Source: Terriglobia bacterium (GTDB taxonomy: Bacteria; Acidobacteriota; Terriglobia; Bryobacterales; Bryobacteraceae). Taken from it: a stretch of 36,313 bases of DNA. Under the pieces are notes generated by a model, which saw only the letters and a program-made list of their open reading frames with translations, was not told where the DNA came from and made no database searches. The position numbers were made by a program, and so were the translations under genes. The stretch spans positions 1 to 36,313 of the forward strand of contig JAJPHN010000035.1 in the NCBI GenBank assembly GCA_021325235.1, written 5' to 3'. The stretch's first letter is position 1, and the number at the start of each line of letters is the position of its first letter. This document shows, piece by piece, positions 10,334-23,520 of the stretch.

Positions 10334-10420
10334 GCGGATGTGGCGGAATTGGCAGACGCGCTAGATTCAGGTTCTAGTACGGGCAACCGTGTGGAGGTTC
10401 AAGTCCTCTCATCCGCACCA
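10334..10420 (+). tRNA. tRNA-Leu (anticodon CAG), CCA encoded
   Basis: This 87-base class II tRNA has an acceptor stem GCGGATG/CATCCGC (10334-10340 and 10410-10416), discriminator A10417 and an encoded CCA at 10418-10420. The anticodon stem CTAGA/TCTAG encloses the seven-base loop TTCAGGT, which places anticodon CAG at 10368-10370 and reads CUG. The long variable arm (TACGGGCAACCGTG) and the T-loop GGTTCAAGTCC are typical of leucine tRNAs. TACAAT at 10290-10295 could be its -10 element, but no good -35 element is seen. Confidence 0.97.
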
Positions 10421-10740: not shown

Positions 10741-11616
10741 TCAGCGTTCACCGCCCCGCAAGCGTCCGCCGCGCGCTCGGCTTCGTTCTGACGGCCATGT
10801 GTTTACTTCCCACTGGTCGATCGGCATCGGATCTGGCGTGAGGACCACGCGATCACGCGGGCGACGTTTCCTGGTACTCAATTGAGCCCTGTCTCTGCCA
10901 ATCAAGCGCAGAATGTTGCCGCCCAACACCAACGCCTCGTTTTCAGGAGAAAGGCCAAGCAGTCGTATCTTATGAATTTCGACACCGGGATGGAGATATG
11001 GCCCGTCCGAGCCGAAGAGAACTTTTCGAGGGCCCGCACGCCGAATGGCCTGCACGATGTAGTCGTAGTGGCGAACAGATGAGGTATCGGTAAATACATT
11101 CGGATGTCGGACGATCTGGTCGATAACCTGCTGATGCGCTTTCCAGTCTCCGATAAAACTGCCAAGATGCGGCACGATAAAGTTCACATCTCGATACTGG
11201 GGCGCGAGCATCTCGATGATTTCCGGTTTCAGGCCGACATCGACCAGTACGGGTAGAGCGAACATTCGAGCAGCCTCGCACAACTCTCGCGTGGGCGATG
11301 CCTCCAGACCATGCACCTTAATCCCGCGGAACTGCCAGGCGTCGACCGCTGTCTTCACCATCCGGCGAATGCGGCCCGCATCACGACGCGCGTGAACCAT
11401 GACAAATCCGATCAGGCGATCCGGATGCTGTTCGACAATCCTGGCAACACGGCGGTTTGCCTCGGCGTAGTTGGTGTGAAATGCGGAGAAAACGATCGTT
11501 TTGTCGATGCCTGCGGTACGTGCTCGACGCAGGTAAGGAGCAAGCGGCGCGTCCGTGTTCCAGGGCGCAGTCATGCGATCGCCCTGACCGGCATGGCAAT
11601 GGCAGTCGACGATCAT
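10741..11616 (-). CDS. Amidohydrolase_2 family metal-dependent hydrolase
   Basis: This 291-residue TIM-barrel protein resembles the ACMSD/PF04909 group, which includes metal-dependent decarboxylases and hydrolases. It opens with the metal-binding HxH of VDCHCHAG (His6, His8). Other expected ligands are visible as GIKVHG, the His in FIVPHLGSF and the Asp in LFGSDGPYLHP. The canonical domain ends near GGNILRLI; the last 45 residues are an unusual Arg-rich extension. The substrate cannot be inferred. ATG 11616 is chosen because it overlaps the stop of the M20 peptidase gene as ATGA, which indicates translational coupling; the frame is open further upstream. Together the pair could cleave an amide or peptide and then process the product. 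Confidence 0.82.
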   Translation of the reverse strand: MIVDCHCHAGQGDRMTAPWNTDAPLAPYLRRARTAGIDKTIVFSAFHTNYAEANRRVARIVEQHPDRLIGFVMVHARRDAGRIRRMVKTAVDAWQFRGIKVHGLEASPTRELCEAARMFALPVLVDVGLKPEIIEMLAPQYRDVNFIVPHLGSFIGDWKAHQQVIDQIVRHPNVFTDTSSVRHYDYIVQAIRRAGPRKVLFGSDGPYLHPGVEIHKIRLLGLSPENEALVLGGNILRLIGRDRAQLSTRKRRPRDRVVLTPDPMPIDQWEVNTWPSERSRARGGRLRGGER

Positions 11617-13028
11617 AAACTGAGCTCGAATTGGCGTTCGCAAACATTGCGCCGACCCATGCAACCCACCCGCGCCAGGAAGGAGATCGATGTGCGAATC
11701 CCGGCGTGGAAGTTGGGCAGATGTAGCTTTTCGTTAGGTGCGTGAATATGGTCGTCCGGTAACGCAAAGCCCATAAGCACGGTAGGGATGCGAAAGACAT
11801 CGTGCAAGGTGCTCACAATCGGTATCGTGCCACCCGAGCGAACGAATACCGGCGTTGCGCCAAAACCGGATTGATACGCCGCGCGCGCGATTCTGTGGAA
11901 TGGGCCGTTGAAATTGACGATCACCGGACGCGCGGTTCCGAGAGTGCGCAGATGGGAAATGACAGTTGGCGGGGTGATTGCAGCAATGTGCTTTTCGACC
12001 AGCCGCTCAATTTCGCGAGGATCCTGGCCCGGGACCAGCCGAAAACTGAGCTTGGCTTGGGCACGTGCCGGAATAATGCCCTTGCCTCCCGGCCCCTGAT
12101 AGCCGCCCGTGATGCCATTAATGGTGAGCGCGGGCCGAAGAGTGGTGCGCTCGTACAAGCTGTAGCCGGGCTCGCCCCAGGATTGTTCTACGCCTGCGGT
12201 GTTCAGCACGTTTTTGTCACATGGGCCGGTACGGGCCATATTCTTGCGCTCCTCCCGGTTCGCGGGGCGTACGCGGGCGTAAAATCCCGGAACTGCGACT
12301 CGCCGTTGATCATCGTGCAACCTGGCGATGATCTCGCAAATCGCCTGAATCGGATTGTGAATAGCGCCGCCGAAGCTTCCGGAGTGTAAGTCCTTTTGGG
12401 GGCCGCGTACTTCCAATTCCATACTGAGTACTCCGCGCTGCGAGTAACTGATTGCCGGGCGGCCCGGACCGAGCATCTTCGTATCGGATATAACCGCGAC
12501 ATTCGAGTGCAGGGCACGTTGGTTGCGCAGCAAGAAGGGCGCCAGATTGGGGCTTGCGATCTCCTCTTCACCTTCGAATATGCACTTGACGTTAACCGGC
12601 AGCGCTCGTTCGGCCCGGAGATAGGATTCGAGAGCTTTGAGGTGCACGAAGAGTTGGCCTTTGTCATCGCAGGCGCCGCGCCCATAAAGGTCGTTTCCGC
12701 GAATGTTTGGAGTAAATGGAGGCGAGATCCACTCTTTCAGCGGCTCCGCGGGAACAACATCGTAGTGCCCGTAGATCAGTACAATTGGTGCACCCGGTAC
12801 GCCCATCCAATCGGCATAGACAATCGGGTGCCCTGGCGAGCGTATGAGTTTCACGCGAAGGAGACCGATCCGCTGTAAGTGGTCTGCCAGCCAATCGGCG
12901 CACCCGGCAACATCCTTTGCATGCCGCGCTTGCGAACTAATACTCGGAAAGCGAAGGAAGTGCTTCAGTTCGTCCACAAACCGGAGGCGGTTTCGGCGTG
13001 CGAATTCGAGAGCTCGCGCTGGACCCAT
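11613..13028 (-). CDS. M20-family metallopeptidase (dipeptidase-like)
   Basis: This 471-residue enzyme of the M20/ArgE/DapE group is probably a di-zinc dipeptidase or amidohydrolase acting on small peptides. Metal and catalytic residues are intact: His88 and Asp90 in YGHYDVVPAEP, the bridging Asp121 in RGACDDKG, the catalytic Glu154 and ligand Glu155 in FEGEEE, Asp182 in ISDTK, and the C-terminal His in DDHIHAPNE. The lid domain begins near LHSGSFGGAIHNP. No signal peptide is seen, so it is likely cytosolic. It starts 18 bases after the stop of the 396-residue gene and could be transcribed as the tail of the glutamate-rich cluster, but its ribosome binding site is weak where cluster genes have strong ones. 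Its stop is coupled to the amidohydrolase start. Confidence 0.9.
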   Translation of the reverse strand: MGPARALEFARRNRLRFVDELKHFLRFPSISSQARHAKDVAGCADWLADHLQRIGLLRVKLIRSPGHPIVYADWMGVPGAPIVLIYGHYDVVPAEPLKEWISPPFTPNIRGNDLYGRGACDDKGQLFVHLKALESYLRAERALPVNVKCIFEGEEEIASPNLAPFLLRNQRALHSNVAVISDTKMLGPGRPAISYSQRGVLSMELEVRGPQKDLHSGSFGGAIHNPIQAICEIIARLHDDQRRVAVPGFYARVRPANREERKNMARTGPCDKNVLNTAGVEQSWGEPGYSLYERTTLRPALTINGITGGYQGPGGKGIIPARAQAKLSFRLVPGQDPREIERLVEKHIAAITPPTVISHLRTLGTARPVIVNFNGPFHRIARAAYQSGFGATPVFVRSGGTIPIVSTLHDVFRIPTVLMGFALPDDHIHAPNEKLHLPNFHAGIRTSISFLARVGCMGRRNVCERQFELSL

Positions 13029-13046
13029 TCATCGCCGACCGCGCCG

Positions 13047-14237
13047 CTACGCCTCATACTCGAATTCAAATTCGGGTTCTCGCGAGCGCGAGGAAGGCCG
13101 GCCGTTCGATCCGCCAACTTTCGGTCGACCATTAGCGCGCACCGGGCTCGGCGCGGCTTGGTCCCAGGGCAGTACTCGCGCCGTTGCCGGACGGCTCGAA
13201 AGGCCCATCGCCTGCGCGCTCGTCAGCCACTCTTCGGCCTGTTCCGCGATTTGCAGCAGAAGCGTCTCAAATTGTGACCGCGTGGTTTGCAGAATATGCG
13301 GCTGCGCCAGCCAACGCAGAACTTCGCGTCCGGTGACGCCCATTCGCTGACGCGGGGAGGTTACCAGCTTTTCGTTGAAGTAACGAATGAGCACTTCTTC
13401 CAGGACGTCCCAACCGGTATCTGCGCCAAAGAGCCGCTTAACATCGTTAGAGTCGAGGATCTTGAATGCCTCTTCGAGTAACTGCATAACCTCCACGCGC
13501 AAAACATTCAGATGACCGAAAGAAAGCCACTTCAGGTTATTGCGCAAATCGAGACCGGCGCGCCGGACAATAGCAATCGAGCCAAAGCTCGGATCGTATG
13601 CCCGCTCCCGAATTACATCGGAGATGCGTTTGTCGCGCCAGAAGAGAGTAACCTGATGCACAAAGTGTGTAAACAGCTTGTGAAAGTCGGTATTCGCACG
13701 CGATCCGGTTGGAACGGGTCCGCCCCCGTAACCAAAGATTCTCTTGTAAGCCGCGAGGCGGTCGCGTTGCGTATAACGGAGTACTTCGCGCCGATCAAAT
13801 TGATACAGTGCATAAGCACCAGGGCCACCGGAAAGACGAACCGTTCCGGCGCGGAAGAGCTCCTGTAATTTCTGTACTACACGAAATACGCCGATCTTTT
13901 CGTGCTGCCAGAGATAGTAAACATCGCCCACCGCAATGATCCGCTCAGACGTGATCGTTTCGTCGTAGCTCTCGACGCCCGCCGGGATGCGTGTTGCACC
14001 GAGCTCCGGAGCGGCTTCCGGACCCAATCCCACCAGGGCCGCCAAACCCTGGTCCGGCGGCGGCGGAGTCTGACGATCCGCGTTGACCACCGACTGCAGC
14101 ATGTCGTCGATCTGCTTGGTGAGTGCATCCGCGAGCTGTGGATTTGCAATCAGATCCGACGACAGACGGTTCGCGACCTGGTCCCGCAAACCCGCAATGC
14201 GGTCATATAGAGCTTGATAATCCTTTTCCAGTGCCAT
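13047..14237 (-). CDS. Cluster protein G: 396-residue unknown with acidic/aromatic C-terminal tail
   Basis: I do not recognise a characterised family. ATG 14237 is preceded by a strong AAGGAGA. Residues 1-60 are helical. Residues about 95-330 form a compact, well-conserved-looking domain with segments such as GDVYYLWQHEKIGVFRVVQK, YALYQFDRREVLRYTQRDR, THFVHQVTLFWRDKRISDVI and AIVRRAGLDLRNNLKW, mostly alpha-helical. A low-complexity Pro/Arg/Gly linker (about 355-385) then leads to the last ten residues EPEFEFEYEA. That alternating Glu/aromatic tail matches the composition of the acidic repeats in the two first cluster proteins (19982-21897), which suggests a common assembly or targeting signal. 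There is no signal peptide and no catalytic motif. It is the last of seven minus-strand genes, with M20 peptidase 18 bases downstream. Confidence 0.7.
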   Translation of the reverse strand: MALEKDYQALYDRIAGLRDQVANRLSSDLIANPQLADALTKQIDDMLQSVVNADRQTPPPPDQGLAALVGLGPEAAPELGATRIPAGVESYDETITSERIIAVGDVYYLWQHEKIGVFRVVQKLQELFRAGTVRLSGGPGAYALYQFDRREVLRYTQRDRLAAYKRIFGYGGGPVPTGSRANTDFHKLFTHFVHQVTLFWRDKRISDVIRERAYDPSFGSIAIVRRAGLDLRNNLKWLSFGHLNVLRVEVMQLLEEAFKILDSNDVKRLFGADTGWDVLEEVLIRYFNEKLVTSPRQRMGVTGREVLRWLAQPHILQTTRSQFETLLLQIAEQAEEWLTSAQAMGLSSRPATARVLPWDQAAPSPVRANGRPKVGGSNGRPSSRSREPEFEFEYEA

Positions 14238-14378
14238 AACTGACTCTCCTTACGGGTTGCGATCCACCTACTCTCACCTAGCCTTCGGGTAACGGCTGAT
14301 ACTGGCGCCCACCGAAGAGACTACCGTTCCCTATCAACCTGAACCCTCCCATGCGGCGCGCGTATCGCTAACGTGAAC

Positions 14379-15998
14379 CTAAGTTGTAATCCGCAGTGCG
14401 CCGATAAGCGCAGGGGTAACATTGTTCCCTCCGTTACTCACGTTGACGTCGTAAGTACCAACCGCTGTGCTCGGGATCGTTGGCATAGTTAATACCAGTA
14501 CACTCTCCGACTGGAAGTAAGCTGTTGGAATAAGCGTATTGCCGCCGTTCGCCGTAAAGGTAACGGCGGTATTAACATCGCTCACAAAGCCGTTGCCGCG
14601 CACGCGAAGCATGACCGACTGATTAGGCACGAGCGTTCTTAGCGATAGCGAGCTAGGCGCCACGCTACTCACTGTGAATGGCAAACCGAAATCAGGCTGC
14701 GGCGTGATTACATGCGAGATCGGCTTAGCCAGTCTTGCCAGATCCTTGAGTTGTTCGCTCAAGTCGCGGAACGAGAGCTGCACGCGCTGCGTAAAGAATC
14801 CGGGCGGCAAGGGCGGGCTGGCAATTTGCGCGTTAATAATCTGATCGATGGTGTCGGAGAGCTTCGTCGCAACTTGCACGAACGTATTCTGCACGCCGAA
14901 CTTACCACCATCCTGAATCAACCGTGGCCCCTCTTCGGTAGCAAAGTTCTGGATCCACGTGAGCAGGTCCTCCAGGAAAATCGGCGCGAATCCAGTATTG
15001 ACGAAGTTGAGTTTGACCGTCTGCCGCTCCGCCGGGCCGACGAATACGGAATCGAGCGTGAACCGGACCTCGTCCACCGACTCCGCTACGACCGAGAGCT
15101 GCCGCGAGAGCAACACCAGTTGCGTGCCGAAGAATGGAGTGGTCGTGTTCAGGTTCAGATAGTTGATATTGTTCAGCCAGCTTTGGGCGAGCGAAGTTAC
15201 GTAGTCGGAAATTACGCGAAAGTTCGACAGATTTGCTTCATCCTCAACGGAGTTAACAAAGTCCTGGTTCGTAAAGCTAAGCGCAAGCAGGTCCCGCAGA
15301 TTTCCGAGCGTTCCCTGAACCTGATCCGCGTCGTTTTGCAGTAGCGGCGCAAAAGCTGTCGCAGGCAGCGGATATGTTGTGCTGCCAAGCAGTAAATTAA
15401 AGTACTGGTCGACACGGGTGATTCTCGGACCACCTACAAAGCCGAGCTCATTGACAAGCTCAGTTAGCTGGCTCTTTACGACGGCCTTGATCGCTGCCAC
15501 ATCTTCATCAGTGGCCTCGGGATCCAGCTTGTAGAGTCCATCCAATAGCGGCAGAGATTGGTCCAGAGCCACCTTTCCGCGCGAGAAGATGCTCGCCTGA
15601 GCGCCGGCGATCTGGCCATTCAGGTCCGTCTGAACCGTGTACGTACGCGGTACCCAGGTAGATTCGGTATGCCCATCCACTTCCTTCAACGTAAATGCCT
15701 GTGTAAGTGCACCAACGAACCCCTTCGCATCTCCCGGTTTGACCTTCCAGCCGAGCACGTCGCTAAGAGCACGGTTGATCACTTGTCCGAGCGAGGAACC
15801 CGCGCCCGTTGAGGGTACTGGCAGACCCGCAGCAGACGGGCGCGCCAGCGGAGAGGGAGCATAGCCCACTTCTTCAGTGAGCACTGGATAGGCTGCGATA
15901 TCCGTCAAAGGCTGTTTCGCGGCCTTCGCAGCGGCATTCATCCGCTTGGCTTGAATTAGTGTCGGTGCTGTTGAAAGTGGCGTGGGTCTTGTCGCCAT
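14379..15998 (-). CDS. Cluster protein F: 539-residue protein ending in a TIG/IPT-like beta-sandwich
   Basis: Start ATG 15998 follows a good AAGGAG. The first 60 residues are Ala/Pro-rich and probably flexible. From about 70 to 440 the protein is mixed but largely helical, with several long segments that look like bundle helices (for example residues in KVALDQSLPLLDGLYKLDP and SVEDEANLSNFRVISDYVTS). Residues about 450-539 match an IPT/TIG-type immunoglobulin-like fold: VSSVAPSSLSLRTLVPN, LRVRGNGFVSDVNTAVTF, then SVLVLTMPTIP and GTYDVNVSNGG. Such domains usually mediate protein or carbohydrate contacts. There is no signal peptide, so export by a standard route is not indicated. About 140 bases separate it from gene G, the largest gap in the cluster; nothing recognisable lies there. 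Confidence 0.65.
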   Translation of the reverse strand: MATRPTPLSTAPTLIQAKRMNAAAKAAKQPLTDIAAYPVLTEEVGYAPSPLARPSAAGLPVPSTGAGSSLGQVINRALSDVLGWKVKPGDAKGFVGALTQAFTLKEVDGHTESTWVPRTYTVQTDLNGQIAGAQASIFSRGKVALDQSLPLLDGLYKLDPEATDEDVAAIKAVVKSQLTELVNELGFVGGPRITRVDQYFNLLLGSTTYPLPATAFAPLLQNDADQVQGTLGNLRDLLALSFTNQDFVNSVEDEANLSNFRVISDYVTSLAQSWLNNINYLNLNTTTPFFGTQLVLLSRQLSVVAESVDEVRFTLDSVFVGPAERQTVKLNFVNTGFAPIFLEDLLTWIQNFATEEGPRLIQDGGKFGVQNTFVQVATKLSDTIDQIINAQIASPPLPPGFFTQRVQLSFRDLSEQLKDLARLAKPISHVITPQPDFGLPFTVSSVAPSSLSLRTLVPNQSVMLRVRGNGFVSDVNTAVTFTANGGNTLIPTAYFQSESVLVLTMPTIPSTAVGTYDVNVSNGGNNVTPALIGALRITT

Positions 15999-16011
15999 GG
16001 CCGTTTCTCCT

Positions 16012-18072
16012 TCAATTCACAGTGATCGTTTGGGTCGGAAATGCGAAATCGCCAATCGGACTTACGATATAGGCGCCTTTCGGCAAAAAGCTTTGAATGT
16101 TGCCGGTCTCATCGGACATCAACTGCCGGACCTGGCCGGACTGCTGGCTGACGACCTGAATTTCGCCCTGAATGGGTTTGCCATCGTCGTCGACGATTTT
16201 CAGAGTGAGCTGCCCCAGGCTGCTCTTTCCAACTACCGGAAGCTGGGCACAAATTCCGGCACCGGTGGCGCGCTCCTGCAGCATGCGAAGCAGGCTCAAC
16301 CCCGCCTGCAGCAAGGGAACGGCTTCCCGCGCCGGCGGCTGGTCCGGATGCTGAAACCAGTTGCCGAGCGATTGGAAACTCGAGCGCAGTATTCGGACCT
16401 GCTCGGCGACAATCACGCCCCGGCGATCGAGAATCGCATAGAGCCGCATCGGAAACGAGCCCAGACGAATCCAGACGCGGCGATCGAAACCATCCAGACT
16501 CTTGTTATCGAGCGCGGTGATCTGCTTCACCGCTTCATCGATCAGTTGCCGGTGCTGCGCAGCGAGTGATTCGTCACATCCGTAAGGATTCGCCGATAAC
16601 TGGTCCGACTCGGTAAGACCCTGGGCAATGATTGCATCCAGAGACTGCGTCGCGTTGTCGAGGCAACTCGCAGGCGGACAAAGCTCGCGCTCCTGGTACC
16701 GGGTGAAGGCGCGCTTCACATTCCCCGAAACATACGCCTGCATATCGGACCAAACGGTTTTCAGCTGAGTTCCCAGCCCTGAGCAGGGCGCCTTCAATTT
16801 ATGAATGGACCTTAGCGTCGCCGCCGCATAAAAACCGAAGTCGTCCAGCTCCGCTTGCAAAACCGTGAAGGAAGCCGGTTGCGCGGTGCAGCGCAGCTGT
16901 TGGATCTGGCACTGAACAGAATCGTACTCGTACGAAACTGTCGTGGCCGCGTCGCGGACACTGTTGAGAAAGGTGTAGACGTCCATGGGATCGCAGGATG
17001 TCGATGCGGCTCGGCCTCCCGCCAACTCGCCGACGAGAGTGTCGACGGCCTGTACCAACGGCGCAACAGGATGAACCGCAGCTGCACCGGGACGCGGTGG
17101 TCCGATAACGCTTTCAAACGTCTCTTCCAGTTGAGTCGCGAGTGGAGTGAGCCGCCGCGCAAATTGCTCCGCTTCGAGCAGATCCTGACGCGAGAAACAA
17201 CTGTTAAGCTCGTTTTCGCGGCTGTATTGTGGTCCGCACTTCCCGTTGCCCTCGCGAGTCAAAACGCAGATGTCCTCTACCGCGTTTTGAAACTGCTGTA
17301 GCCATTCATCGACGGGCTCTCGATCTCCAAAGCCCTGTGCTCCAGACCGCACCAATATGGCTACTTTCGAATAAAGCGCCGAAACAGCATTAAGCGTTTG
17401 TGCTTCCGATCCGTCGCCATCGAGATATAACTCGATGAGGCGATGTCCGGTCTCGCATTCGCTTCGAAGAATACTGTCCGGGTCAAAAGGATTGTCCTCT
17501 AAGCTTTCGGCCAATTGCTCCCAAATGAACCTGCGCGGATTCTGAAACGATCGATACTCCTCCCGTGCTTGAGCCCTGGCTGTCCGATTCGAGCCAGCTG
17601 CTCCGTTATGCGGTGGAGGCGGTGCGGGCGCTGGCGCGTACGCCCGTGCGTTGATATCCGCCTGTAATTCGTCGATCTTCTCCCATAAAGCCTCATGCTC
17701 GTGCTCACGAAGAGCCTTTTCGATTTCCGCCATCTTCGCGTGCAGAGCTGAAAGATCACGCGCTTCGATCGACGCGCCCTTTCCGGGTTTATCGGCCGGG
17801 CCATCCCCTTCCACTGACGACCTTTCGCCTGCGAGCGCTTCTGCGGGCGCGATCGGAGGCGTGGGAATCGCAGAACTACCGCCCAGCAGCGGACCATCGC
17901 CGGTCGCGCCAGGCACGACCTCCCCGGCGCTCGCGGGCCTGGGCGGTATCGGCGTTGCGCTGCTGCTCAAGGCTGCTGGCGTCTCTTCAGGAGCCAGGCG
18001 CTCCTCCGGATGCTCCGAGGGGTCGCCCATCTTCTCTTTTGGATTTTTCTGGTTCTTCGGATCTCGTGCCAT
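16012..18072 (-). CDS. Cluster protein E: 686-residue coiled-coil, cysteine-rich protein with C-terminal prealbumin-like domain
   Basis: This is the largest cluster protein. Residues 1-100 are Pro/Ala/Glu-rich and look disordered. Residues 101-141 form a charged heptad-like helix (SALHAKMAEIEKALREHEHE), followed by a Pro-rich linker at about 145-156. Residues about 165-610 are helical and carry about a dozen cysteines scattered in pairs (for example GKCGPQYS, VQCQIQQLRC, LCPPASCLDN), which is unusual for a cytosolic protein. Residues about 615-686 form a small beta domain (LGQLTLKIVDDDGKPIQGEI, then a Ser/Asp/Glu turn and FLPKGAYIVS) resembling carboxypeptidase-regulatory or CnaB-like folds. 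Its ATG overlaps the preceding stop as TAATG, with AGGAGAGG upstream. No enzymatic motif is visible; a structural role is likely. Confidence 0.65.
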   Translation of the reverse strand: MARDPKNQKNPKEKMGDPSEHPEERLAPEETPAALSSSATPIPPRPASAGEVVPGATGDGPLLGGSSAIPTPPIAPAEALAGERSSVEGDGPADKPGKGASIEARDLSALHAKMAEIEKALREHEHEALWEKIDELQADINARAYAPAPAPPPPHNGAAGSNRTARAQAREEYRSFQNPRRFIWEQLAESLEDNPFDPDSILRSECETGHRLIELYLDGDGSEAQTLNAVSALYSKVAILVRSGAQGFGDREPVDEWLQQFQNAVEDICVLTREGNGKCGPQYSRENELNSCFSRQDLLEAEQFARRLTPLATQLEETFESVIGPPRPGAAAVHPVAPLVQAVDTLVGELAGGRAASTSCDPMDVYTFLNSVRDAATTVSYEYDSVQCQIQQLRCTAQPASFTVLQAELDDFGFYAAATLRSIHKLKAPCSGLGTQLKTVWSDMQAYVSGNVKRAFTRYQERELCPPASCLDNATQSLDAIIAQGLTESDQLSANPYGCDESLAAQHRQLIDEAVKQITALDNKSLDGFDRRVWIRLGSFPMRLYAILDRRGVIVAEQVRILRSSFQSLGNWFQHPDQPPAREAVPLLQAGLSLLRMLQERATGAGICAQLPVVGKSSLGQLTLKIVDDDGKPIQGEIQVVSQQSGQVRQLMSDETGNIQSFLPKGAYIVSPIGDFAFPTQTITVN

Positions 18073-18626
18073 TACATCCTCTCCTGGCTTGTCTCAACGC
18101 CTCGATTTACAACCTTCTTACCGATGCTGATGGTGTGTACCGACACTGCATTCGACCCGGCATGCTCGGCCATCTCTTCCCAGCAGCGCGCGAGGGCCTG
18201 GCTCAACGCCTGCAGTGGCTCGCGGCACCGTTCCACTCCGTCCCTGGTGCTTCCGGCCCAGGCGCGCCATTCACCCCTGCGCTCTTTGCCGAGACAAGCG
18301 AGATCTTTGAGCCGTTCATAGGAAGCCAGCTCGGAAACAAACTGGGCTTCGATCTGATGGACCTGGTTCTGGCAGCGGCCGAGGGCACGCCGGGCCGCAT
18401 GAAAGTCAACCTGAGAACCTACCGCTCCTTCGGCTGCGCGGGCATGCAGCAAACATTCATCCAGCAAACCCATCAACGCGAGAATGGCGTCGCCCATTTG
18501 ATCCAAGAGCACGGCGGCGCCTTTGGCCGGCCTATCCTCGACAATGGTCAGCGATAAGGCCTCAAAGGCATCGCGTAGCCTTCGCAGTTCACTGATGAAT
18601 TCACCGATCTTCGACTCGAGTGCCAT
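18072..18626 (-). CDS. Cluster protein D: 184-residue all-helical protein
   Basis: No family was recognised. The start ATG 18626 follows AAGGAGAT. The sequence reads as four or five amphipathic helices: KIGEFISELRRLRDAFEALS, then AAVLLDQMGDAILALMGLLD, ARRALGRCQNQVHQIEAQFV and REPLQALSQALARCWEEMAE. It ends in a polar strand-like tail with VSVHTISIGKK. This resembles a helical-bundle adaptor or assembly partner. It is coupled to protein E by the TAATG overlap and lies 4 bases downstream of the protease-like gene, so the three are probably made in fixed proportion. Confidence 0.65.
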   Translation of the reverse strand: MALESKIGEFISELRRLRDAFEALSLTIVEDRPAKGAAVLLDQMGDAILALMGLLDECLLHARAAEGAVGSQVDFHAARRALGRCQNQVHQIEAQFVSELASYERLKDLACLGKERRGEWRAWAGSTRDGVERCREPLQALSQALARCWEEMAEHAGSNAVSVHTISIGKKVVNRGVETSQERM

Positions 18627-18630
18627 CCCA

Positions 18631-19974
18631 CTATCTCCTTACAAGCTCCTTGTAGAAGTTCTCGGTGATCGCACCGGGCCGTGCCAGCCGCCGATCGAGA
18701 GCGATACGCGCGGCGCCGATGAGAAAGCGTTCCGGAACAACGCCAGGATCAACCCCTGCCGCCAGTCTGCGCGCGGCCTCCTCGATCATCTGCTGATCTT
18801 TTCGCTCGAAGCGAAGCACCTGCGTCAGGCTTTTGTTCCCGAGAGTCTTGAACGGCTGATAGCACATGGCATCAACCGCCAGCGCGCAGGCCTGCGGAAA
18901 CGTCTCCAGCATTTTCTCCGGAACATTTCCCGCTCGCGGGTTCGGGTAAATGCGCGTCCAGGCACGCCGATATTGATCTGCTTCGTCAACGAAACCCATC
19001 CGGCGCAGCAGTTCGACGCTGATGAGAACCCGTAGATATGGGGTGGGGTGCACGCCGTGCGGATTGAAGCCGAATACCAGACTCGGCGCGCGTCCCACAA
19101 CGTCCATCAACGAACCCACCACTTCCGGTCCACCCAGCAGCAGCGCACTGAGATCGGAAAACATCTCGCGGTTCCAGCGCGCCCAGGTTGCGGCAACGGA
19201 ACGCCCGAGATCAGCTTCGAGGAGCCGGTGCGCAACGCTGCGCGGGACTGGCTTACTCAATCCCAATTCGCTCTGGAGATTGTGACTCACTTCGTGCAAG
19301 ACAGCGCCGAGCGTCCACGGATTCACTAAACGGTGGTACGGCAGCTGCACTAAAGGGAACGGGTTGAATTGCCGCCCCAGCCTTCGCAGCCGGATCCCGC
19401 GCCGCATAGTGGCCGGCGCAAAACCGGTTCGCATAAAACAAAATGGGGGCGGAGCGGGAATGGATTTGGCGGTCCCGATTCCAGTGAATGCAATCTGGTA
19501 GCAATTGAGCGCGATCCGGTCGCAGCTCAGCAACCACTCGGCGTAGGGCATCGATTGCCGCTGCCCAAAAAGCTCGAAATAAAAATCCCAGATTTTCTCG
19601 ATTCCCTGTACCCACTTGTGGGCGCGGTCTTTTTCTGTGACAGCGCGTTCCAGAGCGGGAGGCGAGAGCTGCTCGCCGGCCTGGTCAATCGCTTTCGTTA
19701 CGGTTTTCGACAGCTTGATGAGTCCGCGCCGAAGGCCTTTGATGAGGCTGTTCACAGCCTGGATGTGGCTCTCGGAGGGCGCAGCGGCTCCGGTGCCGAA
19801 CTCTTCGCGCCGAAAGGGCCGAAGCGCTGCCGCGTGGCGTGTGACATTGATGGATTGCGCGCGCAACCAGGGCCGCAGAATCAACTGGGGCCCGGCGCCT
19901 GGCCGCACAGTCCGGTGTAAAGCCGGCCTCACTCTCGAGCGTGTCCGCGGCAGCACGCTGGACATGGTTGCCAT
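18631..19974 (-). CDS. Cluster protein C: HExxH zinc-protease-like protein
   Basis: This 447-residue protein carries a zinc-protease motif in a helical context: LGAVLHEVSHNLQ, with His227, Glu228 and His231. About 40 residues later, NREMFSDLSALLLGG offers Glu270 and Asp274 in an ExxxD arrangement like the third-ligand helix of gluzincins. The N-terminal 60 residues are Arg-rich and low in structure, and residues 65-110 form helices. The family is not one I can name, but motif spacing and hydrophobic flanks support a real metallopeptidase. With no signal peptide, the likeliest substrates are its cluster neighbours. The start ATG 19974 overlaps the region after the upstream TAA, with AAGGTAGGTG as ribosome binding site, and the next gene starts 4 bases after its stop. 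Confidence 0.68.
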   Translation of the reverse strand: MATMSSVLPRTRSRVRPALHRTVRPGAGPQLILRPWLRAQSINVTRHAAALRPFRREEFGTGAAAPSESHIQAVNSLIKGLRRGLIKLSKTVTKAIDQAGEQLSPPALERAVTEKDRAHKWVQGIEKIWDFYFELFGQRQSMPYAEWLLSCDRIALNCYQIAFTGIGTAKSIPAPPPFCFMRTGFAPATMRRGIRLRRLGRQFNPFPLVQLPYHRLVNPWTLGAVLHEVSHNLQSELGLSKPVPRSVAHRLLEADLGRSVAATWARWNREMFSDLSALLLGGPEVVGSLMDVVGRAPSLVFGFNPHGVHPTPYLRVLISVELLRRMGFVDEADQYRRAWTRIYPNPRAGNVPEKMLETFPQACALAVDAMCYQPFKTLGNKSLTQVLRFERKDQQMIEEAARRLAAGVDPGVVPERFLIGAARIALDRRLARPGAITENFYKELVRR

Positions 19975-19981
19975 CGAGCAC

Positions 19982-20869
19982 CTACCTTATTAGCTGGCCG
20001 CAGCAACGACAGTAGCTTGGCGCCGGTGCAGAAACGGCTCCGGCCTGGGTACGTTCGGCCCCGCATGTTGGGCAACTCGAACACACGCAACGGCCCGAAA
20101 CAACACGTCCATATCTCACGCTCGAAGTGGCTGGCTGGCCACCCACGGAAGCGGGTACTCCGGCCGCCGCAAGCCGGCCATGCGGTGTCGCGACCCCGCG
20201 CGCCAGGTGGCGATGAAACTGCCGATCCAGATGATAATGCCGGCGGAGCACATGCCGTCGACGCCTGGGATTCCGGAGTACGCGCTGCGTCTGCTGCGCG
20301 AGTGTGCGCACCGCAATACGCGGCGTGATCCGGCGGTGATGCAGCGCCTGCCGAGCGAGGCTGTGCACAGTTCGGCGGGCGATCGCGGGAACCGTACGCA
20401 GCAAGCGCCGCGCTGCCGGTTGGCGATAGAATTTGCGTGCGATCGTACCAATTCCGCGCGTGAGCTGCGGACTAACTCGGGTTACTGATTTAAGGATTCT
20501 GGGGAGTGCCTTTTTCGCCATGGGCGCAAGCGCCTTTGCTGCCATAGGTAAGAGCTTTGTGGCCGCCATGCCGATCAACGGAAGAAATCGATCTACCGCT
20601 TCCTCCTCCGATTCCGACTCGGCCGCCAGCGCGCCCAGGTGTTCCATCATGGCATCGGCATAGACTTTCCGGATCGGACTGATTTCGGATTCCCACTCAC
20701 CTTCGCCCTCTCCTTCGAATTCCGTTTCACCTTCCTCCTCGAATTCGCCTTCACCTTCAAACTCGTTTTCCAGTTCGCCTTCCCACTCGCCTTCGAGCTC
20801 GTCCTCTAATTCCGTTTCGAGTTCCGGATGAGTTCCCATTTCCTCTTCGGATTCGTACACGCTGGCCAT
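19982..20869 (-). CDS. Cluster protein B: Glu-rich/Arg-rich protein with C-terminal zinc ribbon
   Basis: This 295-residue polyampholyte has three parts. Residues 1-62 are dominated by Glu alternating with Leu, Phe, Trp and Gly (for example EFEGEGEFEEEGETEFEGEG). Residues about 95-225 are strongly basic and helical. Within them, 133-201 aligns without gaps to residues 232-300 of protein A with 28 of 69 identities, so the two are paralogues. The C-terminus holds seven cysteines; C266, C269, C287 and C290 (CPTCG and CRCCG) form a plausible zinc ribbon, with C261, C263 and C289 extra. AAGGAGG precedes ATG 20869. There is no signal peptide. The function is unknown; acidic-head, basic-tail proteins can self-associate or coacervate, which would fit a scaffold. 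Confidence 0.7.
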   Translation of the reverse strand: MASVYESEEEMGTHPELETELEDELEGEWEGELENEFEGEGEFEEEGETEFEGEGEGEWESEISPIRKVYADAMMEHLGALAAESESEEEAVDRFLPLIGMAATKLLPMAAKALAPMAKKALPRILKSVTRVSPQLTRGIGTIARKFYRQPAARRLLRTVPAIARRTVHSLARQALHHRRITPRIAVRTLAQQTQRVLRNPRRRRHVLRRHYHLDRQFHRHLARGVATPHGRLAAAGVPASVGGQPATSSVRYGRVVSGRCVCSSCPTCGAERTQAGAVSAPAPSYCRCCGQLIR

Positions 20870-20904
20870 GTCATTGCCTCCTTGAGCTGCTTTCTTCTTG
20901 TCTG

Positions 20905-21897
20905 CTATCGAGACATGCGGCGTCGGATCCGGCGTCTCGGACGTTTGTAGGCTCGGCTGACGCCAACATTGCGGACAACAGCGGCTGTGCAGGCCTTCGG
21001 ACTTCCGATGACACGCCGCACCTGCCTGGCTGCGGCCCGTGCTGCAGTCCGTTTCGTAATCGGGACGCCTTTAGCTGCCTGACGCTTCAAATCACGAATT
21101 GTCCGGCGAACAACAGTGGGTACGGCTCGCACGAGCATGCGAGTGTTTCGACGGCGGCGCAGCATACGGGTCAATACCGCAGTCCCACGCACCAGGTGCG
21201 GAAGTAAATTACGCAGGTCACGCCGGTCTGCGGGCGAAAGCACGGTAACGGCCGCCGCTCCCACCATCGCTTCAGCTTCCCCTTCGGCTTCGGCATGCGA
21301 GGCTGCTTCGGCCATCATTTCGGCAACTGCCATATTGTGCGTGAGCGGATGAGCGGCGATCTCGTGAACAACCTCCTGTTCACTCTCGAACTCGCTTTCA
21401 AACTCACCCTCGAGCTCACTTTCGCCCTCCAGGGCAGAACTGGCCAATCTGCCAATGCTCGCGCCCGCCGGGCCGAGGATCGCCCCTCCGACAATCGGCG
21501 CAGCGACCTTTGCGATCTTTTTGAGCATGGGCGCGGCGCGGCGTAGAAACTTTCCGATACGTCCGAAAAATTCTTCCGACTCGTATTCACCTTCGAACTC
21601 TTCCTCACCGAGCAGACTGCCCACCACGTTCCCTATGGCTCCCAGCCAACCCTCGCCTTCCAGGTGGCCCGCCTCCCCCTCCAACTCGCCTTCCAGCTCT
21701 TCTTCGAACTCGCCTTCGCCTTCGAGTTCTTCCTCGAGTTCGGCTTCGCCCTCCTCCTCACCGAGCAGACTGCCCACCACGTTCCCTATGGTGCCCAGCC
21801 AACCCTCGCCTTCCAAGTGGCCCGCCTCACTCTCCAACTCGCCTTCCTTAAACTCTTCCTCGAGCTCTAGCTCGAGTTCGCTCTCGTGGTCCGCCAT
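20905..21897 (-). CDS. Cluster protein A: Glu-rich repeat protein with basic C-terminal domain
   Basis: This 330-residue protein is the first gene of the cluster, with GGAGGT nine bases before ATG 21897. Residues 1-110 are alternating Glu/Leu/Phe/Gly sequence containing two copies of a 26-residue unit, at about 24-49 and 75-100, whose core is HLEGEGWLG then IGNVVGSLLGEEE. Residues about 111-157 are amphipathic and Gly/Ala-rich (FLRRAAPMLKKIAKVAAPIV, then GGAILGPAGASIG), resembling membrane-active peptides. A second acidic stretch (158-178) follows. The basic domain at 232-300 is paralogous to that of protein B, and the last 20 residues are nearly pure Arg/Lys. I recall similar WLG/LLGE acidic proteins as uncharacterised in other phyla. 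A role as the self-assembling main component is inference. Confidence 0.7.
   Translation of the reverse strand: MADHESELELELEEEFKEGELESEAGHLEGEGWLGTIGNVVGSLLGEEEGEAELEEELEGEGEFEEELEGELEGEAGHLEGEGWLGAIGNVVGSLLGEEEFEGEYESEEFFGRIGKFLRRAAPMLKKIAKVAAPIVGGAILGPAGASIGRLASSALEGESELEGEFESEFESEQEVVHEIAAHPLTHNMAVAEMMAEAASHAEAEGEAEAMVGAAAVTVLSPADRRDLRNLLPHLVRGTAVLTRMLRRRRNTRMLVRAVPTVVRRTIRDLKRQAAKGVPITKRTAARAAARQVRRVIGSPKACTAAVVRNVGVSRAYKRPRRRIRRRMSR
21602..21847. repeat. Two direct copies of a 93-base unit inside protein A
   Basis: The units at 21602-21694 and 21755-21847 are offset by 153 bases (51 codons) and differ at only about five positions. They encode the two HLEGEGWLG...GNVVGSLLGEEE segments of protein A. 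Such high DNA identity, including at third positions, points to a recent in-frame duplication or ongoing homogenisation, so copy number may vary between strains. Confidence 0.9.
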
Positions 21898-22274
21898 CTG
21901 TGGTTACCTCCAGAACTGGTTGGTGACACAGAGAAAGTAAATCGATTCTTCCGGATAAACCAGTCGCATTTTGCAGGTAGCTCCGTAAGGTGACGCGAAA
22001 TGAGCCGCATCCCTTGACACGGCTTTCGCCAAGCGGGCCTCATTTGCGTTATTTCGAGTGCTCTAGCTCAACGCATCTGCGAAGAAGCGCTCTGTCACCA
22101 AAAGCAGCGACTCCAAATTGGCGAAAAAGGGTGATATTGTTACAGCCTCGTAGTGAGTTGTGAAGCGTCTATCTTTTTGGCGCGTCCGGGCGAGCTATTG
22201 GCCCTTTTTGCCGCCACTGAAATGCGTAATTACGTTTAACACCCTGGCAGAAGATCGGCGGAGGAACACTGCTT
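21898..22274. promoter_or_regulatory. Divergent control region between the Glu-rich cluster and the LuxR gene
   Basis: These 377 bases hold no gene and must contain the promoters for both directions. The base composition is noticeably richer in A/T than the flanking coding sequence. On the plus strand TTGACA occurs at 22014-22019, but no good -10 follows at the right spacing. No minus-strand promoter stood out by eye. Candidate LuxR half-sites could not be identified with confidence. The GGAGGT and GGAGG ribosome binding sites of the two flanking genes are clear at its edges. Confidence 0.5.
22118..22146 (+). promoter_or_regulatory. Possible promoter for the LuxR-type regulator
   Basis: TTGGCG at 22118-22123 and TACAGC at 22141-22146 are 17 bases apart, followed by a leader of about 120 bases to the GGAGG site and ATG 22275. 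Both hexamers are imperfect, so this is a weak candidate read by eye. Confidence 0.25.
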
Positions 22275-22748
22275 ATGGTGGTCACATCAATAACACGCAC
22301 CGAGCAACTGGTGCGAGAGCTCTTGAAATGTGTGTCGCCCGGAACGACCGTTGGCGATGGGAGTCATGAAAACGGAGTCGAAGAAGTCCTGTTTGATCTT
22401 GAAGTGGATGGGTTGCGCTATCTGTTCATCCGGCTTCCTAAACTCGGGCAGCCGCAAGTCCCGCTAAGCCCCCGCGAGCAGGAGATTGTACGCCTGGTTG
22501 CGCTTGGACACTCAAACAAAATCATCGCCGGAGTTTTGAACATCAGTTCGTGGACTGTCTGCACTCACGTGCGCCGTATCTTCACAAAACTGGGCGTCGC
22601 TTCACGCGCAGCAATGGTGGCGAAGACATCGGAGTTGGAAAGAATGAAAGATCGACGCCAGATTGTGAGAAAGTCTTCCTTGCCTTCTGAGCTCGAATGC
22701 CCGCCTGCTCCAAGATCGCTCGTAGGAAACAGCCGTGTTGTGATCTAG
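22275..22748 (+). CDS. LuxR/GerE-type transcriptional regulator, probable regulator of the Glu-rich cluster
   Basis: This 157-residue protein has a C-terminal LuxR/GerE helix-turn-helix at about 63-118: LSPREQEIVRLVALGHSNKI, then a diverged GVLNISSWTVCTHVRRIFTKLGV recognition region. The N-terminal 60 residues (EEVLFDLEVDGLRYLFIRLP) are too short for a receiver or autoinducer domain and form a small alpha-beta segment of unknown ligand or partner. No phosphorylatable receiver Asp arrangement is evident. GGAGGAAC lies about 10 bases before ATG 22275. It is divergent from the first gene of the seven-gene cluster and shares its 377-base control region, which makes control of that cluster the simplest reading. 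The C-terminal 40 residues look disordered. Confidence 0.85.
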   Translation: MVVTSITRTEQLVRELLKCVSPGTTVGDGSHENGVEEVLFDLEVDGLRYLFIRLPKLGQPQVPLSPREQEIVRLVALGHSNKIIAGVLNISSWTVCTHVRRIFTKLGVASRAAMVAKTSELERMKDRRQIVRKSSLPSELECPPAPRSLVGNSRVVI

Positions 22749-23136: not shown

Positions 23137-23520
23137 TCAATTCACCCAGCGCGTTGCCGGTTCAGCCTGCGGCGCACGAAGCCGCTGCAGCAGCTTACGC
23201 GGATCGAACAAATGCTCCGGAATGAAGTGCCGCACGGACCAGCGGCTCTGCTCATCCAGCTGGACACCCACGAAAAATGCCTGATTGCGGTACACCGCGT
23301 AGCGGATCAGACCAGTCAGCTCCACCTGCCCATAGAGGACCCGGACCGGAGTGCCCACGTGGATCGAGCATTCCAGCTGAAGTGACATCCCTTTTTCGGA
23401 TATATCTTCGAGATTCGCGATCTTACGTTTTTCCTGGTGGTTGAAATCGTGCCAGATCACCTCGATCAGATCTGCGCAGAGCAGGCGGGTATCGCGTCGA
23501 CGGTCGTGCATTGCGTCCAT
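23137..23520 (-). CDS. PilZ-domain protein (candidate c-di-GMP receptor)
   Basis: This 127-residue single-domain protein has the two PilZ elements. The arginine motif is in DRRRDTRLLC at about 6-15 (RRxxxR). The D/NxSxxG-type motif is EDISEKGMSLQLE at about 38-50. Strands continue through GTPVRVLYGQVELTGLIRYA and FFVGVQLDE. Binding of c-di-GMP and an output through a protein partner are expected for the family; the target is unknown. GAGTAGG lies just before ATG 23520. It stands alone, divergent from the CPBP protease gene. Confidence 0.85.
   Translation of the reverse strand: MDAMHDRRRDTRLLCADLIEVIWHDFNHQEKRKIANLEDISEKGMSLQLECSIHVGTPVRVLYGQVELTGLIRYAVYRNQAFFVGVQLDEQSRWSVRHFIPEHLFDPRKLLQRLRAPQAEPATRWVN

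Follow-up and report, generated by a model that had tools for sequence, protein, structure and literature searches.

The 36,313-nucleotide stretch of Terriglobia bacterium DNA analysed here (assembly GCA_021325235.1, contig JAJPHN010000035.1, positions 1 to 36,313), referred to throughout as the window, contains an operon of nine minus-strand genes with a LuxR-type regulator gene, R, divergent upstream of it. We tentatively read this operon as the core of an undescribed bacterial tagged-effector system. The genes are denoted G to A in order of transcription, followed by those for an M20 dipeptidase (M20) and an Amidohydro_2 protein (AmdH); counts of loci in the list refer to the 28 loci, including the window, that are compared below.

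22275-22748, plus strand: R, LuxR-type regulator, 157 aa (GerE domain, 58.8 bits against a Pfam cut-off of 23.5)
22094-22111, no strand: operator-like dyad GTYGC-N8-GYGAC between R and G, without mismatch, 214 bases upstream of G
20905-21897, minus strand: G, 330 aa, with Glu-rich arms, GWLG.IGNVVGSLLG repeats, a cationic/Gly-rich segment and a basic C-terminal domain; no family above cut-off
21433-21570, minus strand: core segment of G (FFGRIGKFLRRAAPMLKKIAKVAAPIVGGAILGPAGASIG...), common to the G-like proteins of a second lineage, type 2 (hhalign)
20989-21351, minus strand: GF domain at the conserved C-terminus of G (alignment A3)
19982-20869, minus strand: F, 295 aa, paralogous to G (they fall in a single BLASTP cluster), its C-terminus containing Cys
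20225-20674, minus strand: GF domain of F (alignment A3)
18631-19974, minus strand: E, 447 aa, helical zincin-like metallopeptidase (24-sequence alignment; model pLDDT 82)
19282-19296, minus strand: HEVSH zinc-binding motif of E (sequence alignment and pattern)
19153-19167, minus strand: EMFSD, which presumably supplies the third zinc ligand of E (E270 and D274 do not vary across 24 sequences)
18072-18626, minus strand: D, 184 aa, helical and adaptor-like, in 23 of 28 loci; no family above cut-off
16012-18072, minus strand: C, 686 aa, 12 Cys, the window-specific occupant of a variable slot (only its self-match among the loci searched)
14379-15998, minus strand: B, 539 aa, with a TIG-like C-terminus; B family in 26 of 28 loci
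13047-14237, minus strand: A, 396 aa, present in 24 of 28 loci and strongly conserved (19-sequence alignment); its model is helical but weak
11613-13028, minus strand: M20, eighth operon gene (NF006053, 526.8 bits against a curated cut-off of 441)
10741-11616, minus strand: AmdH, ninth operon gene (Pfam, 74 bits against 26.4)

The initial annotation of this DNA had recognised a cluster of seven minus-strand genes, A-G, with small gaps or overlaps and shared ribosome binding sites, and all seven open reading frames (ORFs) lie where it placed them. Their spacing by coordinate runs from a 1-base overlap to 141 bases (G-F 35 bases, F-E 7, E-D 4, D-C an overlap of 1, C-B 13, B-A 141), and a purine-rich Shine-Dalgarno-like stretch (GGAGG, AGGAG or AAGGTAGG) precedes each of the seven starts. 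This packing is not a matter of chance, since the same order is seen in 27 further loci. The seven genes are real, but the unit is larger than was proposed: the M20 gene, which has no clear ribosome binding site, begins 18 bases downstream of the 13047 boundary, and the ATG of AmdH overlaps the M20 stop codon (ATGA), so that by coordinate these two genes, both left out at first, continue the operon to nine. In keeping with the earlier remark that none of the proteins matches a known system, none of A-G reaches a Pfam or NCBIfam cut-off, and these scans do not assign them to separate known pathways; a PADLOC scan of A-G and R likewise returned nothing for A-G, and R matches only the helix-turn-helix end of two CARF models. 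Hydropathy gives no clear transmembrane segment in the window operon proteins (maximum 1.64 over 19 residues, in D), and no signal peptide is evident in them by inspection.

The 28 loci comprise 22 from a genome scan with E, one from Paraburkholderia PGU19, four from genomes that genome searches turned up (L042, L097, L098 and L100), and the window; they were picked for encoding E, A or the GF domain, and the order of the genes is therefore informative whereas the presence of those particular genes is not. All 28 share the order GF-E-(D)-(C)-B-A, under several phylum labels, with one to three GF genes per locus (two of the loci with three, L017 and L029, include split ORFs) and one additional GF gene after A in L033. 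Co-occurrence in conserved order, which the initial annotation had put forward as a check, holds for close homologues but not for distant relatives of E (L040, L041, L044-L046) and of A (L038, L039), which occur without the rest of the cluster, and overall its interpretation is partly supported. The two loci without B and the four without A are cut at a contig end, and the five without D are those from cyanobacterial records or the phylum of G566. M20 is present in 17 of the 28; in six of the other 11 the contig ends at its position or earlier, and the remaining five (L024, L031, L033, L097 and L098) are uncut. AmdH accompanies M20 in 14 of these 17 loci, L015 being cut there and L020 and L034 having none.

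The cluster is rare wherever it was counted, the centre genome being included in all of these counts: E-like genes occur in 6 of the 297 phylum genomes (four are distant), A-family genes in 5 of 299 genomes of the class, the GF domain in 3 of 194 genomes in the phylum of G566 (L031, labelled a cyanobacterium), and E-like genes in 5 of 399 in the order to which G565 belongs (four are distant; G565 is L028, labelled Nitrosomonas) and in 1 of 194 in the phylum of G568 (L029, labelled Verrucomicrobia). A-family genes are found in none of the three same-genus genomes listed. In a quick-method tree built from A and E (24 rows, without bootstrap) the Paraburkholderia plasmid copy falls within the Acidobacteriota set, with support of 98 and at an unresolved base, which points to transfer of the cluster between phyla. 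The labels Nitrosomonas, Chloroflexales and Nevskia rest on metagenome bins, and mis-binning may account for some of them. Four conserved unannotated families (GF, E, B and A), together with D outside the cyanobacterial loci, travel together in distant bacteria, and in part of the loci they are joined by swappable enzymes.

These enzymes lie between A and M20, and this cargo slot of the relatives and the last two operon genes are the most informative features of the cluster. Extra genes are present there in 9 of the 17 loci with M20, giving 16 ORFs of at least 100 aa, and seven of the 16 (three in L015, two in L025, and one each in L027 and L042) begin with the acidic N-terminal tag ELELExELExLMxxLxxSDLESEAE. 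The C-termini of the tagged proteins are aspzincin in three cases (one below cut-off), OmpA in two (one below cut-off), trypsin-like in one and of no recognised kind in one. A shared N-terminal element on variable C-terminal enzymes, the arrangement of polymorphic toxin systems in the broad sense, is accordingly found in four loci and not in the window copy, which has no cargo in its slot. A tag search with a strict filter had found only G and F proteins, and a looser one gave few cargo tags among unrelated ORFs; the tag was recognised by reading the slot proteins and then made into a profile, so that the motif was found before it was tested. Searched against the 4364 ORFs of the fetched loci, an 8-row profile that includes the weaker L100 member matched nothing but its own rows. 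A 7-row profile matched none of 294 cluster-negative genomes (a count that takes two genome draws of the class as one sample) and nothing outside the slot in the positive ones, and matched 1 of 12 further cluster-bearing genomes or records, itself a training locus.

Twenty-five cargo candidates were assembled by position and reading, not blindly, and take in type 2 genes and some genes downstream of A in the M20-less loci L024, L031, L097 and L098. Pfam domains score above cut-off in twelve of them, and all fall among the wall, protease, nuclease or OmpA types (PG_binding_1, M15, VanY, Glucosaminidase, DUF2272, GIY-YIG, Trypsin, Aspzincin, OmpA and DUF4056). The Pfam scan covered the slot ORFs other than L017 c9, L021 c9, the 110-aa ORF of L027 and the 102-aa ORF of L029. 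In the type 2 loci it did not extend to the third of the G-like genes in L118 or to the L120 gene that resembles an aminotransferase gene. Four scanned genes were left out of the 25, namely the GF-like gene of L033, the aminotransferase of L106, its counterpart in L118, and L044; the L033 and L118 genes have no family, and that of L044, not placed in the slot, has none above cut-off. Adding the four gives 13 of 29 with a family, one of the 13 being an aminotransferase. A WLFEA-type pattern from the cyanobacterial cargo was also considered and rejected as a general tag, because a reversed-pattern control gave 4 places in 4 genomes against its own 7 places in 6 of 194, because its matches are mostly in genomes lacking the GF domain (only G760 of the six has it, with 2 places, both in the slot region), and because none was found in the cluster-bearing G566 and G582.

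Several of these observations weigh against a tagged-effector system. The slot is empty in 8 of the 17 M20 loci (the window and seven others), the tag is missing from 9 of the 16 slot ORFs (one of these, in L100, matching weakly), and the cyanobacterial cargo has a different start. The 8-row tag profile matched neither G nor F, and a motif common to tag and scaffold is therefore not shown; the 7-row profile matched 2 of 299 class genomes, both cluster-positive training loci, so that only its absence elsewhere is informative. There is no Pfam domain above cut-off in 13 of the 25 cargo candidates, and the aminotransferase of type 2 loci (above cut-off in L106) does not fit a list of effectors. 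No immunity gene was recognised by reading, no profile search for immunity having been made. The activity, assembly and secretion that such a system supposes are predictions from sequence.

With these points taken into account, we rate it as possible, at somewhat less than an even chance, that the window operon is the core of an undescribed tagged-effector system. R would control the operon through the dyads, and G and F would form a scaffold, both having long Glu/aromatic arms and G also a cationic glycine-rich core. Variable cargo enzymes would be recruited to it via the acidic amphipathic N-terminal tag carried by the seven proteins, the cargo being peptidoglycan binders or hydrolases, proteases, a nuclease and OmpA-domain proteins. 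E, a zinc protease by its motif, could trim or release scaffold or cargo; A, B, C and D may be scaffold or chaperone parts, and M20 and AmdH, to judge from their families, might clear or process peptide products. The most likely target would be the envelope and contents of other cells, and release may be by lysis, because the operon proteins have no clear transmembrane segment or evident signal peptide. Such a function and assembly of A-G is what we infer from the predicted proteins. The fuller proposal of a new weapon or delivery particle that has spread between phyla, in which the acidic amphipathic tag loads interchangeable enzymes that cut walls, proteins or DNA onto a zincin-matured G/F scaffold composed in part of membrane-active cationic helices, is doubtful and we regard it as rather unlikely. 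If the tag does load cargo, it would represent a modular way of packaging or delivering enzymes that is new in principle and relies on a short signal that can be transplanted, and would give testable roles to family-less proteins of soil bacteria, cyanobacteria, and plant- and insect-associated bacteria.

The proposed scaffold proteins were described initially as two Glu-rich paralogues, and this is borne out: G and F share one BLASTP cluster and both have Glu-rich arms (alignments of 20 G and 20 F sequences), within which GWLG/FLGG stretches are repeated in many loci. The further suggestion of shared acidic/aromatic tails fails, as the acidic stretches of G and F are N-terminal and internal arms, and the acidic tail of A (EFEFEYEA) is present in the window but not conserved. 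A search of 17 genomes or records found the GF domain in 14, and it adjoins the cluster save for one exception in genome G084, where an orphan GF protein with many KLGGLG-type repeats (L099 8232-9521) lies on a separate contig from the cluster. The core of G is a cationic stretch followed by a glycine-rich hydrophobic stretch, placed between acidic arms, and matches 10 type 2 G-like proteins with an hhalign probability of 97.4.

A rival explanation is peptide processing or envelope remodelling, in which G and F would be acidic precursors of a cationic membrane-active segment, and E, M20 and AmdH would mature and degrade the encoded peptide. The presence of protease, dipeptidase and hydrolase genes in one operon agrees with this, as does the composition of the G core, which may resemble cecropin-type precursors; it nonetheless leaves A, B, D and the tagged cargo unexplained and has no known cleavage site, and we think it quite improbable. 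The repeats in the arms bear on a different explanation, that of a cytoplasmic condensate or compartment storing enzymes or glutamate-rich protein without any antagonism, for which FLGGILGE and GWLG would be sticker-like elements, export signals would not be expected (none is evident), and M20 and AmdH could recycle peptides. Wall hydrolases and trypsin-like and GIY-YIG enzymes are a poor fit to storage, and so is a distribution as patchy as 5 of 299 class genomes; we consider this explanation unlikely, although it and the defence role discussed below are the main rivals of the tagged-effector reading.

E was noted at the outset as an HExxH protein, and its HEVSH motif belongs to a conserved zincin signature. 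H227, E228, H231, E270 and D274 are invariant in the 24-sequence alignment, and HExxH plus ExxxD are kept by pattern in all 41 E sequences, distant relatives included. The suggestion that the cluster has its own protease is supported to this extent, but the signature is sequence evidence and not an assay. Neither a search of the E profile against PDB sequences (best E 0.02, not significant) nor Foldseek with the E model against pdb and viral sets (no match at E 0.001) identified a relative.

Three groups of known systems share features with the tagged-effector system proposed here. In the EAD1 peptidase systems, according to the accessible part of Kaur et al. 2020 (PMC7159879), a shared peptidase-linked element marks variable effectors, lysozyme-like and papain-like wall enzymes included, much as the acidic tag is one common element on variable effectors in the relatives of the window. 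At the core of the EAD1 systems described there are trypsin-like peptidases and NucA-like nucleases, accompanied in some by a STAND NTPase (PMC7159879), whereas the window operon has none of these and the tag is short, acidic and amphipathic. No NTPase family appears in Pfam scans of the operon proteins; no model named for EAD1 was part of the search. The same part of that source describes modules of a zincin gene adjoining candidate substrates with an FxSxx-COOH terminus; E is similarly encoded beside proteins that could be substrates, but those precursors are described as small (PMC7159879), while G and F are multi-part proteins of 295-330 aa and E has no significant PDB sequence or fold relative.

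The third group is that of the PVC-metallopeptidase polymorphic toxins, which combine interchangeable toxin-like domains with a metallopeptidase and, in the accessible sections of Zhang et al. 2012, are listed with a CDC48-like ATPase, VgrG, and tail or baseplate proteins (PMC3482391). Both the interchangeable domains, here in genes of the relatives, and the associated metallopeptidase recall this branch (PMC3482391). They also raise the question of whether the cluster belongs, as an accessory, to a contractile injection system or phage tail, and Phage_sheath_1 (PF04984) is indeed matched in 4 of 14 cluster-bearing genomes or records (three above cut-off). It is unmatched in the other 10, the window's own genome among them; the operon has no CDC48-like ATPase, VgrG, or tail or baseplate protein; for A-G, Pfam gives no tail or baseplate family above cut-off and PHROG nothing below E 0.03 (the genome-wide search covered the sheath only); and no phage or viral-contig homologue was found for A, the protein which that search covered. 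Because the sheath is missing from its own genome, this explanation is largely refuted and we hold it to be extremely improbable. The cluster is like the EAD and PVC systems in placing one common N-terminus on variable enzymes. As the operon is without NTPases, VgrG or baseplate and its genome without a sheath match, we do not file the cluster as a member of the EAD or PVC systems, so far as the available portions of these sources describe them. No description of it was found in the full-text literature, a coverage that mostly leaves out subscription papers, and the sections of PMC8195603 available contain nothing on this cluster.

The remaining proteins of the proposed core differ in their conservation. 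The homologues of A in the 19-sequence alignment are 50-85% identical to the window protein; its profile has only a weak best match among PDB sequences (E 0.12), and its weak model (pLDDT 67) gives no Foldseek match in pdb at E 0.001. The description of B as TIG-ended is sustained by a TIG-like C-terminus, but this lies below the Pfam cut-off (16.0 against 20.9 bits). The 686-residue C has no homologue beyond itself among the loci searched and is not conserved; its slot holds a different protein, C10, in four other loci, and a relationship between the two is not supported (hhalign probability 4.8%).

The divergent LuxR regulator was correctly recognised, R having a GerE domain above the Pfam cut-off and lying on the strand opposite A-G. 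A matching LuxR-type gene is present in 22 of the 28 loci: 12 have it upstream and divergent, 9 at the downstream end and one in another position. The dyad was surveyed in 22 of the 28 loci, six being outside the examination, and in 17 of these it occurs with 0-1 mismatch within 380 bases upstream of G. Counting both strands there are 49 hits, where shuffled sequences give 2.1 on average and 6 at most, and the background over whole loci is 0.23 per 380 bases, or about 5 expected for 22 such stretches; the pattern was derived from the same sequences, and the counts therefore describe its conservation and are not an independent test. R may bind the dyad.

A second lineage, type 2, is represented by six loci in which G-like, E-like and X genes occur together (L043, in the window's phylum; L106 and L107, in the order of G565; L118, Ensifer; L119, Paraburkholderia phymatum; and L120, Rhizobium), with AmdH in five of the six. 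Their cargo is peptidoglycan-binding, glucosaminidase or GIY-YIG, with PG_binding in four of the six. X is not recognisable either as a distant A (hhalign 0.4%, with an X alignment of three rows) or as B (0.3%). At E 1e-20 AmdH is found in 3 of 72,556 plasmid records, each time beside a type 1 or type 2 cluster, and two Rhizobium plasmid records with X are without it, which indicates that AmdH is linked to the system without being required in it. Three type 2 clusters are on large plasmids (L118 6549-15031, Ensifer; L119 7491-13215, P. phymatum; L120 6514-15489, Rhizobium); L118 and L120 have PG-binding cargo and a gene that by eye is aminotransferase-like, and AmdH is present in L118 and L119. 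An intermediate cluster, L104 5695-14020 (G1152), has an R-like protein, two acidic, Asp-rich proteins that are G-like by eye, and matches to E (2e-83) and A (1e-67), with no B, D, M20 or AmdH match.

More distant relatives are found in other gene sets. The A-like proteins encoded on plasmids of B. pyrrocinia (L038 2566-14471) and Tolypothrix (L039 7540-18758), which match each other with an hhalign probability of 99%, lie beside S8 peptidase genes in uncharacterised sets that include a Trypco2-like protein (L038) or a TIG-like protein (L039), both below cut-off. E-like zincins are encoded near CHAT-domain genes on plasmids of Bradyrhizobium (L040 11884-16277), where there are also phospholipase D and patatin genes, and of Sinorhizobium (L041 4791-13128), where the set adjoins the gene for a large ATP-binding protein. 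These neighbourhoods, together with a patatin gene near the B. pyrrocinia A-like protein and its Trypco2-like companion, would suit an intracellular defence or cell-death system, in which the core keeps enzymes inactive until a trigger lets E free them against the producer's own contents; that every operon protein looks soluble agrees with this. Pfam scans show no NTPase or sensor in the window operon, A-G have no PADLOC match, and several cargo proteins bind or cut peptidoglycan, which is located outside the cytoplasm, and we judge a defence role improbable. A further distant E relative, in L044, lies near a 741-aa protein with repeated acidic SPFL/SPYL motifs (11655-13880), and a neighbouring long acidic protein resembles G by eye.

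The surroundings of the operon include a tRNA-Leu gene (window 10334-10420) that adjoins its downstream end. Integration linked to a tRNA gene was rejected as a general feature, as none of 17 other loci has a tRNA gene at the downstream end; two of the 17 have one upstream, about 0.7 kb from R in L032 and about 2 kb from G in L020. Beyond R there is a gene for a PilZ-like protein (window 23137-23520; 18.7 bits, below the cut-off of 22.5). Finally, a glutamate-decarboxylase-like gene, named by eye, is located upstream of the cluster in 9 of the 28 loci (for example L015 6244-7638).

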